DNA from: Telopea speciosissima
Lineage: Eukaryota > Streptophyta > Magnoliopsida > Proteales > Proteaceae
NCBI RefSeq assembly: GCF_018873765.1
Contig: NC_057918.1
Span: forward strand, 12,284,862-12,348,861
Length of the DNA: 64,000 bases
Reading direction: 5' to 3'
The notes below the pieces were generated by a model. It was not told where the DNA came from, made no database searches, and worked only from the letters and a program-made list of their open reading frames with translations. The first letter of the stretch is position 1. The number at the start of each line of letters is the position of its first letter. Positions 1,205-11,665 of this stretch are shown here, in pieces. Made by a program: the position numbers and the translations under genes.

Positions 1205-2440
1205 AGATTTTGAAAGCACACATTCCTTATATAGGCAATGTTTGGTTGCAGGGGAAATTGAAGGGATGAGAAGAGCATGTAAGGGGAAATAAAAATTTAA
1301 TAAATAAATTTGTAATTATTATCCCGCATGGTTATATTACAAACTCCAAAGTATTCCCTATTTGGTTATTAAATTTCAATTTACTTTGCATCTAGATACC
1401 TTGGACCCTTTTTGGTTGCAAGAGAACTAGAAAGGGAAAGGGAAATGAAGGGAGTGGGGGTGAAGGAATTTTTTTTCCCGACTTTTAAGTCATTTGGTTG
1501 CAACGGAAGTGAAGTGAAATTGATTTAGCATATTCTATCAAAAAAAACTTATTTAGCATAGTTGTTTGTTTGAAAGTAAAATCGATGAAAAATCAATGTA
1601 ACTTTTTTTTTTAGTAAATTTGTGATCCAATCAATTTTACCAACTTGCTCTTATTATGGCTAGTTTTATAGTTTATTTAAAAAAAAAAAAAAAATACATA
1701 TATATTTTAAAATTTTGAAATTCAAAAGAAGCAACTTATCCTAAACATAAAATTTCACTAGTAGTAAATCATTTGAGATCAAACTTTTGTTATATATCAC
1801 AAAACTTTGATCAATTTGAAATAATGTATGAAAACGCACTACCCTATTAATATCCATACATACTTACACACAGATGTGCATAACCAATTAGAGTGCTTTT
1901 GAATTATAACAAATATATATATATATCAAAACTATTTTTTATTTTTTTAAACAAAGTTGCGGAATCTTACATAACCTAGCTACGATAGTTTCCATTTAGC
2001 CACGGTCAAGGGATTAAGGGATAATTCCTTGACCGAGATGTTCGTATGGTCGAGAGAGAGTATCGCTCATCAGTGGGGGGGGGATGAGGATTATTGAATA
2101 TTCGTAAATAGGAGGGTAGGCTTTTATGATTATTAACGAACATTGATTTCCTTCATCCATGGTGAAGGAAAACTTCTTAGTGACTGAATGTCTTAGGAAT
2201 TCAGTTTCGATTGACTTAATAGACGACTCTGTGATAATCGATATAGGCCATGGGTTGACTTAAAGAAGGTTGGGTCTAGGAAGGAATTCTAAAAACCAAT
2301 AGCCCAAGGAGGTTGGTATAGCAAGCTTTTGCTCTTTCCTATTTTCGTAGAAAAAAAATCACTGATAAGTCTGACTACTCAAGCTCGAAGATTGATTTTT
2401 AGGTTAGGTTAGTTCCAAATTCAGATTGGGGGAAGGATAG
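1205..2440. other. AT-rich intergenic stretch
   Basis: No gene is visible. The word TTTGGTTGCA recurs near 1,238, 1,412 and 1,493, each followed by purine-rich GAA/GGGAAA sequence. This looks like nested ends of a small repeat family, and a reverse copy of the same end is at about 55,385. Poly(A) and TA runs occur at 1,680-1,700 and 1,910-1,925. Confidence 0.4.
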
Positions 2441-2461
2441 GCACATTTGAGAGGAATTTTA

Positions 2462-2612
2462 CTCGTCTCTTGGGAGCTCAGCATGCCCAAGGTGCTGCCA
2501 GCCGTTGGGTTGTGCTGCACACATCCCTAAGCATGCGCCAAGATATGTGTGGCACAACTCAACCGTTGGATGCCCCCTGGTAGCACCCTAAGTGCTGGGC
2601 TCCCTGGAAACG
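2462..2612. repeat. foldback element / long hairpin
   Basis: The left arm (about 2,468-2,515, starting GGGAGCTCAGCATGCCC) is nearly the reverse complement of the right arm (about 2,550-2,608, ending GTGCTGGGCTCCC). The arms are about 50 bp and the loop about 35 bp. The arms carry several mismatches, as expected of an ageing MITE or foldback element. It lies 0.3 kb upstream of the snoRNA promoter. It could fold into a pre-miRNA-like RNA if transcribed, but nothing in the sequence shows that it is. Confidence 0.6.
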
Positions 2613-2884
2613 ATCCTAATCCATTTAAGAGCTAGTTCCCTTTCCCATGGTTACAAGACGTACATCTAATATACATTTAGCACTAATAGGTGGTAGGACC
2701 AAACTATAAATTATGATTCAAAATGCAAGCATTTAACAGGCCTCTTTTGCATTTCTTCAACCCTTTATACTTGCTCAGCTTTTCATTTTGGGGGGGGGGG
2801 GGGGATTCAACCTAAGCCTGGTGGCAAGTGGCAATCCACATGCCTTGACCTCGGGCTGACATTTCTCGACCCTAGTTTGGTCCA

Positions 2885-3130
2885 TGGGCCAAAAATCCCA
2901 GAATAAGCTCAGAAAATAATGTGGTTCGAGCCGCGGCGTGTTTTTTTAATGGGTCTGGGTTGGAGTCCTCGACGTGGGCCTGTGATAAAATCTAGGATTT
3001 GAACTCGAATCAGATCAGAGTGGCAACAAAATTCGATTGATAATTTCCTATTGCTTTGCTTATTTGTTTGCCCTACTTGGGTTCCTGAATCCTTTATTCC
3101 TCCGGACTATTCGCTCTCGCTCTCTATAAA
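2885..3130 (+). promoter_or_regulatory. snoRNA-gene promoter (site II + TATA)
   Basis: Two TGGGCC site II elements (2,885-2,890 and 2,975-2,980) and a third close variant at about 2,950 precede a TATAAA at 3,125-3,130. A CCCTAA telo-box core follows at about 3,146. Site II plus telo-box is the known promoter signature of plant snoRNA and ribosomal-protein genes. Two C/D snoRNAs follow on the same strand. The sequence from about 2,940 to 3,465 is repeated in inverted orientation at 21,840-22,330, where the same elements are kept. Confidence 0.6.
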
Positions 3131-3560
3131 TGTACTCAAACACTAGCCCTAACAGCGAACCTCTCATGAGTTATGCCTTTCGTTACATTTTCTCCGTGAT
3201 CGTCGAAGCATAGGTTTTTGTTTCCTGATGATTACCATTAGGCTTTCTGGTTAATTCTGCGGCACTCTGGACCTATTCCTCCCTCTATACAGTGTTTAGG
3301 ACCGACGTTAATGGTGAAAAACATTTTTGCTCTCACACCCTAACTGCTAATCTCTTATGCCCTTCCTTATATTATTTCTTGGATTACTGCGGGTCAAAGC
3401 TCTGAGTCTATTATTTTTTTGTGATTTCTTTGCTGCGAAGGGGCTGCTCTAATCTGGGATGCGTTAAATCTGCTTTCTTGGTTTCTTTTCCACAATCTTC
3501 TTAGCACTAAAGATACGATCTATCTTATATGTGGTTTTTGATGCGATAGAGAAGTTAAAA

Positions 3561-3643
3561 AGAGCAGGTGATGATAGAACAGACAGGGACATCAGTACTC
3601 CTCTGGAGGATGTTGACTCGTCTTGGGAATCTCTCTGATGCTC
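3561..3643 (+). ncRNA. C/D-box snoRNA 1, 25S rRNA double guide
   Basis: Box C TGATGA is at 3,569-3,574 and box D CTGA at 3,635-3,638. A closing stem pairs GAGCA (3,562-3,566) with TGCTC (3,639-3,643). A degenerate C' (TGTTGA) is internal. Two guide stretches are visible: AGACAGGGACA in the 5' half and TGGGAATCTC next to box D. From memory of plant 25S rRNA these complement neighbouring pieces (UGUCCCUGUCU and GAGAUUCCCA) of one conserved segment. The gene directs 2'-O-methylation with fibrillarin in the nucleolus. A second homologous copy follows 470 bp downstream. The yeast guides snR38 and snR48 act in this neighbourhood, but I do not assign a plant family name. Confidence 0.8.
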
Positions 3644-4034
3644 AATGTTCTGTTTTCCCGTGCCTTTGAATTGCTACTTTGAAATTTTCTTCGATCTCGA
3701 TTTATCATTTTCTTCAATTCAATCCATCTTCTGGTTTTGTTTCTGTGCTTTAGGTAAATTGTCCATCTATTGTTTTTGCATTTGTTGGTTGTATCGTTAC
3801 TGCTGTTTCTGTTATTTGATTTCAAATGTATGTCACTCTTTGATGGTTTTCTTTGTTATTAACTGTATTGTACTATCATCTGTGCCTATGATGGTTTTAA
3901 ATATACTATGAGGAACTCCTATGAAAACAATTTAATCTGAGGCACTTAATTTTGTATGTCTTAATCATTTCACCATCAATTTTGGCTCTAAATGTTATTT
4001 TTTATATATCAAGATTGTTGTTTGTGTATTTAGT

Positions 4035-4119
4035 ATGTGCAAGTGATGACAAGATAGACAGGGATATTTGACTCCATTGGAGTATGATGACTTGTCTTTG
4101 GGAATCTCTCTGATGCATA
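4035..4119 (+). ncRNA. C/D-box snoRNA 2, paralogue of snoRNA 1
   Basis: Box C TGATGA is at 4,044-4,049, an excellent C' TGATGA near 4,085, D' TTGA near 4,068 and box D CTGA at 4,110-4,113. A TGCA/TGCA closing stem brackets the boxes. Both guides of snoRNA 1 are preserved: AGACAGGGA plus a G-U pair upstream of D', and TGGGAATCTC upstream of D. By the D+5 rule the D guide points to the second A of GAGAUUCCC and the D' guide to the first C of the CCC in UGUCCCUG. Flanking sequence differs from copy 1, so selection has kept the RNA itself. It is probably processed from one polycistronic precursor with snoRNA 1. Confidence 0.82.
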
Positions 4120-4700
4120 AAATTATGAAAACATATGGATCCTTTGATATAAAATGATATATATGGTTATACTAATTCTCTCCTCCTTTTTTCTCCTTTC
4201 TCAATCATTTAATTTTAAATACAATGTATATTCTTGCCATTTTATTTTTTTCGCTCATTTGTTTTTTTGAGTAAGCCAATGATGCATTATATGTAATTTA
4301 TTATCAGAATAAAGAAATGATGGATGATACATAATTGTCACTACCGCTGAGGCTATCTCTTCCAATAGAGACCACAAATTTTTTTTTCTTCCGGAGACCT
4401 AGATACATGTTCTTTGAAGTTTGGTTTTTTATTTATTCAATATTTGTGTAGGTCTTAATTTTAATTTTGCAATGTTAAATTCTTTGGTGTTTCCTTTGTT
4501 TTTTATGAGATCAACATTCTCATTCAGATTGCGTATGAAGCATATATATTGGGAGTATTATCTAATTTTCTCGATGAGACAATAGTTCTTGCTTCTGAAG
4601 CAGTTAGTATTTGTATTTACTTTTTGTTGTGATTTTGCTTCCATTGCTTTTTGTTGCAATTCATCAGTTGAGACAGTTAATATCAGTGGATGCTTAATTT

Positions 4701-4771
4701 GCAGCCTGATGATTGTTTTCTAAGAACGGAGATTTGAAGGGTGATCTTTGTTGTAGCCTGGCTGATTTCCT
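4701..4771 (+). ncRNA. candidate third C/D snoRNA (18S guide)
   Basis: TGATGA at 4,707-4,712 and CTGA at 4,762-4,765 are spaced as in a C/D RNA, with a D'-like TTGA near 4,735. Between C and D', CTAAGAACGG is an exact complement to the CCGUUCUUAG segment of plant 18S rRNA. Against it: no convincing closing stem, a poor C', and no rRNA match that I recognise for the second guide. The position downstream of two real snoRNAs on the same strand favours it. Confidence 0.4.
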
Positions 4772-5882
4772 GTTGGGCTCCAAAAACAAACTTGCTTGTA
4801 ATGAGTTTTTCTGTTTTCCTGTTCATGATCTGGCCTCTTTAGGCAATGGTGTACAACTATAATTTGTTTTCCTTTGTTGTTATAAAGCAATTAGTACATT
4901 GGCTGTTTTGTTCACTATTTGTTGAAACAAGATCGGGAATGTTGGTGGTACCAATGAAGGGAAAAGCTGGTTGTCATTTGGTAGATCCAAAGGCCCACAG
5001 TGCTTGAGAATGCAGTCCAACACCCCGCGTGTGTGCCTTAGTATTACGGGCTGTTGGATGGTATGCTCTTGGAATCCTGTCATGCTACAGGGGACCCAAA
5101 TTCGAATGCCCCCTCTCTCTAGCTAACCTCCTATCATGAATCTCATTTGCACCCATGCAGATGCCTATCTGTTAACCTCAGCTTCATTTTCTTCAGAAAT
5201 GAACACTTCGAGATTAATTCTTTTTGTGGAAGATTAGGATCGTTTAGCCCTGTTTCAATAATTCATTCTATACACACTGATTCCTAAAACTGTTCTAAAG
5301 GTCTGTAAACTTGAATGTATTACGTGATGAAATAATGGCATGTGATTTTTTACTTCTTGTTCCCAGTGCTAGGTCAAATCACTCTCATAAGAGAGCTAAA
5401 CTCCAATTTCAGTTTAAGCCACTTGTACTACACTCGTCCAGCTTAAGAATCAAATCACTCGATTTGGGTTCCTGAATATCTTGCTAAAATCGGTTCCTTT
5501 GCTGACACTCTATGCTCAAATGAGTGGATCGTTTTGGTTGTGATTCGGTAGTTCGGATACTTTCACGACCAGTAGGCCGATTTGTTGAAGACATCCCTGA
5601 AGAGGATGAAGGAAAAATTGGGTAGTTTGGATACTTCTCCGTCATACTCATGAGTCATGAGTCTATCTCTCTCTTCCCAGTTGAAAAGACATCTGCTCCC
5701 TTGTTTTGAAGTAGAGATAAATAGATATATGGGAGTGTTGGTATAGATGACACTCCCGGACAGAAAATTACTTCATTAATATGTTTGTTGCAAAATATAA
5801 TAGAGGCTCATTCGGCAAAACTAGAAACTACTTCATTAATATTTTTGTTGCAAAATATAATAGAGGCTCATTCAGCAAAACT
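4772..5882. other. non-coding stretch after snoRNA cluster
   Basis: No gene seen. 4,930-5,110 looks like a small repeat with short inverted parts (CCAACA...TGTTGG). Around 5,775-5,880 a unit of about 60 bp beginning TACTTCATTAATAT is tandemly duplicated, immediately left of the MITE at 5,883. Confidence 0.4.
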
Positions 5883-9079: not shown

Positions 9080-11665
9080 ACTTCTTCTTCACTACTTGTT
9101 TCCAGTTCTACTTTCTACATCCCTTCAAATATAGGTCTACTTTCTACATAGAAGAGGTGCTTGTTCCTCTGTTCTGTTAGAGCACATACTCTTTCTTCTT
9201 TTGGGAAAAGCCCAAAAGCTATCCTTCCTCTGGGGTTGAGTTCAGTGCAGTGTGGACTGCTTGGGATTGGATGGGCTGTTTGGAATGTCTACTATGCTTC
9301 AGGCTTCAGAGAGAAACTGAAGTTGTTAATAACTTTTTTTTTTTTTGGGTTTAGTTTATTCATCAATGGTCCCGCATGTGGGGATGAGGTTTAGGGGTAC
9401 AGCCAAGGATGACTTGCCGGCAAGCTTTTATGTCCATATCATGTAAGTAGGAAACCACTCGGCAAATTGTCTTTGGCTATGTTTCTACCTCCTTTTCTCA
9501 TGCTGGATTTTTGATGATGATTATGAAGAGGAGGAAGATGATGAAACAGTACTGGTTGGTGGTAAGAGTTGGTAAATATTTTCTTTACTTCACATCAGCT
9601 TCTTTGTTATTAAAAGTTTAGAACACTACATATTCAATCACTTGGGTTCTAACTTCTAACCTGTGCTTCTAAAAACTCTCAACTTTGGTCCATGGTTTCT
9701 CTCTATTTTTGCTTTCTTGTCTACTGGTACAGGATGGATGGCTGGATAGTTGTTAAAACATTTGCTGATGTCTTCATGGCATGGAACCAAGAACTCTCTC
9801 CATCATGGGCTGGGCCTTAGGTTCTCAAGACTTGATGGCACTACCACAGCTGTATTTGTTTGCTCATTAATTCTTAGGTTATGAACCATCATGCATGGCT
9901 GATCCTGCCCTGCTTTATTCCAGATTGTGCTATAAACAGCATCAAAATTTATTGAAATGCTATGAACAGAAACACATTTGATGTTAGTCAGAGATGATCT
10001 GTGGCTTGCAGTACTGTGTCAAAGAAAATCTGTTGGCAGCCTTGGATTTTACTGGGTCAATGGATTGAGCAAGTTGAATTGATGCAGCATGCAGGACAGG
10101 CATTGGTGGGCTGGATACTAGTTGTCTTTGTCTTGTTCTAAAGCAATTCTTTAGTAACTTTGGTGGTCCATGATTGGGTTTTGTAATAGGTTCTACTTTG
10201 TCATGAATTAGTATCAGTTCTATTAGCCGCCCACCTTTTAAATTCCTAACGCAGTCAAAAAGAAAGCAAATTAAATCTCTCTCAACCTAACAAGCGAGGT
10301 AGAGATGCTCATCTTATCCTCTTTCTCTAGTCACTTTGATTTTACCCAAGCAAGACCAGAAAAGGAAATATTAACCAAAACAACTATTAAAGAGAATCAA
10401 TAAAGTCACCACTATTAAGGCTTTAATAATTTTGACTTCAGATTTATATCTGTCCACAATTTTGTAAGAGATTATTAATCTGATCTGTCTATTATGCTTC
10501 TAGACATTATTTCACAGGCATACCCCATCTAAAATCAGTCACCTGATGTAGAAGGTACCTTTTTCACTGGAAAGGAGGAAGGAAGATTATTACAAATGAC
10601 TTCTCTAATTTCCTTTATTCATCCAGTAAAGGTTCTCAGAATGACAAATATTTGTTGTACTTTTGGCCACTACTTACTGCATTGCTAGCTCATGTCATCA
10701 TCATTAAAGAGGAAACCAGAATAACCCTAGCTTAGCTAGGACAAATTAAGTGGAGGTGCTTCGAGGTGGGACTAAAACTATTTAGAATTTAGATGATGTG
10801 TGAGCATTTGATCAAGCATACTTGTTTCTTATCCTGCATATGCTGTGTCTACTTGCATCTATGGATTTCAGTTGCAAGTGTTCATTCTTTGGCTCATAAG
10901 TTTCAATTTGATACCTTAAGGTTGATCAGTATTGACATCCCTCTTTGGCCATGGGTAGATGGTTGCAAGAAGAAAGAGCTTGATTTGTTCCACACTGACG
11001 TCTTGAAAAGTGCATCACCACTCAGCATTCATTAGATAAGGGGATTGTGGAATCTGCCTAATAGATTATTGGAAATGCTTCAAGAATCCAAAAAAATTCA
11101 GTATATGATGAAATACACAATTAAGACTTTCTGAAAAATGATAAAATGTCAAGGGTACTGAATCAAATGGGTCTTCAACTATCAAGGCTTCAGGGCAGGA
11201 GGTCGGTGAGTCTTTTCAGCTAAAAGATCTCTAGGAGTTGTAGTTTTATCTTGTTCTAAACTCTGCTTAAAAATGCTGTAAAATCAACACATTCAGGTTT
11301 CACTAGAGCATATAACCAAGTTCTCTGCAATTGGAACTGAGATTGTTGTAGTTGATGATGGTAAAAAGATACAAAATCGTTGACTCATGGATGATGGAGT
11401 TGCTGCTTTTAGAAGAATGTTTCATGATCAAGCAAGTTTATATTAGACCACAGGGAGACAAAAATAAAGATTCTCTTAAGAGTATAGAAATTATAGTAAA
11501 TCTACTATGCTTAAGCTAGGGAATTTGGGTCAGCTATTTGTACATTTTTTTTTATCAGTTCTATACATTCATTTGTTGATCAGCAAAGAAGTGCTGGTTT
11601 ACTTATTGCAGTGATACTGATACTATTATTCATACCTTCTCATTGAAGAAATAACAGGAACATGC
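9080..11665 (+). other. copy-A version of PPR upstream flank
   Basis: Homologous to 35,570-37,815. No intact gene. A stretch near 9,750-9,980 corresponds to a possible decayed exon described at 35,985-36,257, but its frame is not kept here. The remaining open frames are short and differ between the copies, so this is best read as non-coding flank. Confidence 0.5.

Follow-up and report, generated by a model that had tools for sequence, protein, structure and literature searches.

Why would a plant genome keep, at one locus, two small RNAs that carry the same pair of guides, each able to pair with two neighbouring stretches of ribosomal RNA (rRNA)? The question is raised by a 64,000-nucleotide (nt) stretch of Telopea speciosissima DNA (NC_057918.1, positions 12,284,862 to 12,348,861; the window, whose own numbering we use below). 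The pair almost certainly represents two isoforms of the plant box C/D small nucleolar RNA (snoRNA) snoR44, clustered with snoZ267 and a SNORD70-like RNA, each predicted to guide two methylations in 25S rRNA. The snoR44 family, both of its targets and the idea of simultaneous binding have all been published, and the locus is an ordinary find because targeting of the two sites is already on record for Arabidopsis.

Both copies match the snoR44 family over its full length. Rfam places them exactly where a preliminary description of the window had put two C/D RNAs: copy 1 at 3561–3644 and copy 2 at 4036–4119, both on the plus strand and 84 nt long. Each covers positions 1–97 of the 97 in the snoR44 model (RF00357), scoring 75.7 bits (E = 3.6e-13) and 75.6 bits (E = 3.8e-13), respectively, with a cut-off of 48 bits. 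The copies are 81% identical across 79 nt, blastn returns no longer match between them, and the sequence that flanks them has diverged. The preliminary description named boxes and closing stems and held that the two guides had been kept despite this divergence; all of these were located.

Each copy has the RUGAUGA and CUGA boxes beside a closing stem that mark box C/D RNAs, together with internal C' and D' boxes, for which degeneracy is allowed. In copy 1, box C (GTGATGA, 3568–3574) is followed by the D' guide (3581–3591), a degenerate CAGT as D' box (3593–3596), the C' box (ATGTTGA, 3610–3616), the D guide (3624–3633) and box D (CTGA, 3635–3638). Copy 2 has the same order on the same strand: box C (GTGATGA, 4043–4049), D' guide (4055–4066), a degenerate TTGA as D' box (4068–4071), C' box (ATGATGA, 4084–4090), D guide (4099–4108) and box D (CTGA, 4110–4113). 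Stems of five pairs close both RNAs, GAGCA/TGCTC in copy 1 and GTGCA/TGCAT, with one G-U, in copy 2.

The guides pair with adjacent segments of the genome's own 25S rRNA. The 25S gene came from contig C446, which holds the one place that matches the 22-nt target pattern exactly; it was identified with the Rfam model LSU_rRNA_eukarya on locus L033, and 25S positions are counted from L033:386. The D guide of both copies pairs over 10 base pairs (bp) with GAGATTCCCA (2333–2342). The D' guide pairs with the stretch starting at 2344, over 11 bp in copy 1 (2344–2354) and 12 bp, including one G-U, in copy 2 (2344–2355), leaving a single unpaired C between the two stretches. The D guide duplex has a computed energy of -17.5 kcal/mol in both copies, and the D' guide duplex one of -20.7 (copy 1) or -19.9 kcal/mol (copy 2). 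Both D and D' thus have upstream of them the uninterrupted helix of at least 9 bp expected of a methylation guide, with the target five nt upstream of the box. This D+5 rule assigns an A to the D guide (opposite base 3630 in copy 1 and 4105 in copy 2) and, 11 nt downstream in 25S, a C to the D' guide (opposite 3588 and 4063). The alignment bears out the earlier proposal that the guides complement directly neighbouring 25S stretches, and the interpretation of the pair as double-guide C/D snoRNAs with two adjacent 25S sites is supported by what can be read from the letters.

A chance resemblance, with no gene present, is vanishingly improbable, and nothing was found in its favour. Rfam E-values near 1e-13 speak against it, as do the conservation of the cluster at two paralogous loci and a guide-shuffling control. 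Single-letter shuffles of copy 1's two 20-nt guide regions were compared with 3009 nt of 25S and 1209 nt of 18S rRNA: any 10-bp Watson-Crick match in these pieces arose for 12,303 of 400,000 shuffled guides, and two such matches within 30 nt for 2 of 200,000 shuffled pairs. Some observations weigh against the snoR44 reading as a whole. The D' boxes of both copies are degenerate, and that of copy 1 was placed by applying the D+5 rule to the known Arabidopsis C, so its placement is not independent evidence. A full Telo-box, AAACCCTA, was not found in 1501–3560, the roughly 2 kb upstream of the pair. The contig with the exact 25S match is 31 kb long, and its rRNA genes fall short of their models (3009 bases for 3401 positions and 1209 for 1831), and the 41-nt target region recurs with 2 or 3 mismatches at 6 further genomic places. 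The short genes and near-matches suggest that the ribosomal DNA is probably poorly assembled, and the position numbers given here are local for that reason.

The predicted targets probably coincide with sites methylated in other plants. Arabidopsis SnoR44 has been assigned to A2327 and C2338 of 25S with RiboMeth-seq (Wu et al. 2021, PMC8053127). Because base identity, the 11-nt spacing and the snoRNA family all agree, the target A and C in the window's RNAs are likely to be the equivalents of these two nucleotides, and both positions would then be 2'-O-methylated in T. speciosissima. Arabidopsis SnoR44 shares its Rfam family with the window pair and, it appears, both targets and a possible simultaneous binding (PMC8053127). 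The two differ in species and may differ in gene arrangement, the two copies here flanking snoZ267.

The wider record of these sites corrects one point. In a 2024 review table (PMC11542601) tomato and tobacco have Am2329 and Cm2340, human has Am3830 and Cm3841, Pyrococcus abyssi, an archaeon, has Gm2109 and Cm2120, and yeast has Cm2337 as the only one of the two sites. In the same table Arabidopsis numbering runs one above that of yeast (Gm2289/Gm2288, Cm2338/Cm2337), so the D guide's A corresponds to yeast 2326. The methylations listed for this part of yeast 25S are Gm2288, Cm2337 and Um2347 (PMC5199042), none of them within 10 nt of that position. The preliminary description had set this A one base from a site methylated in yeast. 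It lies instead 11 nt from the equivalent of Cm2337, which is the target of the D' guide. Yeast snR64 directs methylation at the equivalent of the C that the D' guide targets (Cm2337; PMC5199042), but the yeast sites listed do not include the equivalent of the target A (PMC5199042, PMC11542601). Human U74 (28S Cm3820 in an older numbering) also serves the Cm2337 equivalent (PMC8817022).

The geometry of the guides raises the possibility of joint binding. Each snoR44, assembled with fibrillarin into a small nucleolar ribonucleoprotein (snoRNP), would place its D guide on 25S GAGAUUCCCA and its D' guide on the next stretch, UGUCCCUGUCU, and would direct 2'-O-methylation of the A and C that match Arabidopsis A2327 and C2338, here the final A of GAGA within GAGAUUCCCA and the first C in UGUCCC. 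Since the targets run antiparallel to the guides in their order and leave a one-nt gap, a single snoRNP could bind the two segments simultaneously. That a single RNA could hold about 22 nt in this way is a fair reading, and it is in print for SnoR44, which is named among six snoRNAs with two sites 11–18 nt apart that are possibly bound simultaneously (PMC8053127). Arabidopsis U24, U36, SnoR19, SnoR22 and SnoR29 likewise carry two guides per RNA for nearby rRNA sites, with different targets (PMC8053127). Archaeal double-guide small RNAs (sRNAs) share this design, again with different targets and with a proposed role in folding; the arrangement is common there, 262 of 489 sRNAs being predicted double-guide (PMC4644070). 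In yeast snoRNAs, extra base pairing beside the target is reported to stimulate methylation (PMC5389607).

We regard it as decidedly improbable that snoR44 acts chiefly as a chaperone, clamping about 22 nt of 25S for folding, with methylation secondary. The retention of both guides, with helices one nt apart, would suit such a role, which Dennis et al. 2015 propose for archaeal double-guide sRNAs (PMC4644070), and the title of one paper calls yeast snR190 a snoRNA chaperone. However, for Arabidopsis, tomato, tobacco and human both target nucleotides are listed as methylated (PMC11542601), so ordinary guiding accounts for the conservation of both guides. Dictyostelium also argues against the clamp: its 26S carries Am2592 and, 11 nt away, Cm2603, which is the yeast Cm2337 equivalent, and the two sites are assigned to separate snoRNAs, CD34 and CD26, respectively (PMC8817022). 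The table entry for Am2592 names no yeast, human or Arabidopsis equivalent (PMC8817022), and the spacing suggests that it is the plant target A; if this offset identifies the site correctly, the two methylations do not require a single shared RNA. Plants might nonetheless select for both guides on one RNA, with snoR44 keeping about 22 nt open until both methylations are made, although we think this unlikely. If true, the folding order of this 25S region would depend on snoR44, and other lineages would use separate RNAs. Joint helix formation and its importance for folding form a question already in print, which the window sequence alone does not advance.

Methylation guiding by both copies has also to be weighed against the silence or decay of one of them, the other alone being functional. 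The genome gives this idea some grounds, since decayed relatives of snoR44 exist in it. At least seven snoR44 matches were found with Rfam, at least five of them over the cut-off (among the best 72 of 33,037 candidates scored). Two loci, C3:50.07 Mb (L034) and C8:15.74 Mb (L035), are paralogous clusters, with mutual identities of 93.1% (1017 nt) and 96.1% (945 nt) in two cluster-holding pieces. Aligned to the window, both retain snoR44 copy 1 with its two guides as well as the SNORD70-like RNA and one more conserved block. snoZ267 is present at C3:50 Mb and missing at C8, where the alignment has a gap and Rfam gives no match. The second snoR44 is present at both loci but decayed: boxes C and D are altered, and the D guide is mismatched, its duplex reaching -10.3 instead of -17.5 kcal/mol, with D' weakened to -14.0 (C3:50 Mb) and -18.0 kcal/mol (C8). 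The C8 copy scores 36.4 bits. Among the three clusters, only the window has an intact second snoR44. Because the second copy is present, though decayed, at both paralogous loci, the tandem pair probably predates their split from the window. Three further snoR44-like copies (L026, L027 and L028), one on C2 and two on C11, have a common 4-base gap in the D' guide and are probably pseudogenes. Against this background of decay, both window copies retain boxes C and D, a closing stem and two fully pairing guides while their flanks have diverged, and a silent member of the pair seems to us a long shot.

The pair belongs to a compact snoRNA cluster. snoZ267 lies between the two copies at 3879–3948 on the plus strand (RF00344, 60 bits, cut-off 43), and a likely fourth member follows at 4274–4354 (plus strand), with a 12-bp Watson-Crick match of its D guide to the genome's own 18S rRNA. 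This last RNA falls below all Rfam cut-offs (SNORD70, 30.2 bits over 4266–4362, cut-off 50) and is probably a SNORD70 relative. Going by SNORD70 targeting, its target would be Arabidopsis 18S A468, the site that Wu et al. give for SnoR17. Two snoR44 copies and snoZ267, all over their Rfam cut-offs, and the SNORD70-like RNA thus share one strand within 0.8 kb. Further along, 4684–4791 (plus strand) is 86% identical to both paralogous clusters and contains TGATGATT and CTGA. This block may be one more snoRNA belonging to the cluster; the comparison with rRNA yielded no match in it that looked like a guide.

The cluster snoRNAs are probably cut from a single transcript made by RNA polymerase II. 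Plants usually have polycistronic snoRNA genes that this polymerase transcribes (PMC4660826), and co-transcription would fit the arrangement seen here. A Telo-box together with Site II is the promoter expected of such genes. Upstream of the window cluster lie partial ACCCTAA motifs at 2585 and 3337 and Site II elements (TGGGCY) at 2301 (minus strand), 2596, 2885 and 2975; Site II carries little weight, because it occurs 50 times in 64 kb. In each of the paralogous clusters a single AAACCCTA precedes the first snoR44 by about 0.65 kb, with an opposite-strand Site II about 0.1 kb further up. The list of open reading frames (ORFs) for the first 10 kb holds 7, of 74–88 amino acids. It ignores introns and so does not exclude a protein-coding host, although nothing points to one. 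A MIR169 precursor (9387–9492, plus strand; Rfam MIR169_2, 63.4 bits) lies some 5 kb downstream of these snoRNAs.

The 25S target sequence recurs in loci with archaeal names. A contig scan found the 18-base target GAGATTCCCACTGTCCCT in 21 loci, nine of them with archaeal names (7 Nanoarchaeota and 2 Diapherotrites), where it is unchanged (L002, L005, L006, L009, L012, L013, L015, L019 and L020); it lies within archaeal 23S rRNA in all three loci run through Rfam (L002, L012 and L020). The D guide followed by box D gave 12 one-mismatch places in the nine archaeal genomes and 2 for the reversed pattern, an excess that is unexplained. No C/D RNA look-alike was seen among the 10 of these 12 places inspected by eye with 65 bases upstream, and we do not claim an archaeal counterpart of snoR44.

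For snoR44 biology, this locus leaves existing knowledge unchanged and adds one plant genome to the family's record. What Telopea contributes is a tandem second copy retained at the window locus and decayed at two paralogous loci. The pair might be used as a natural test of whether two guides on one RNA cooperate.
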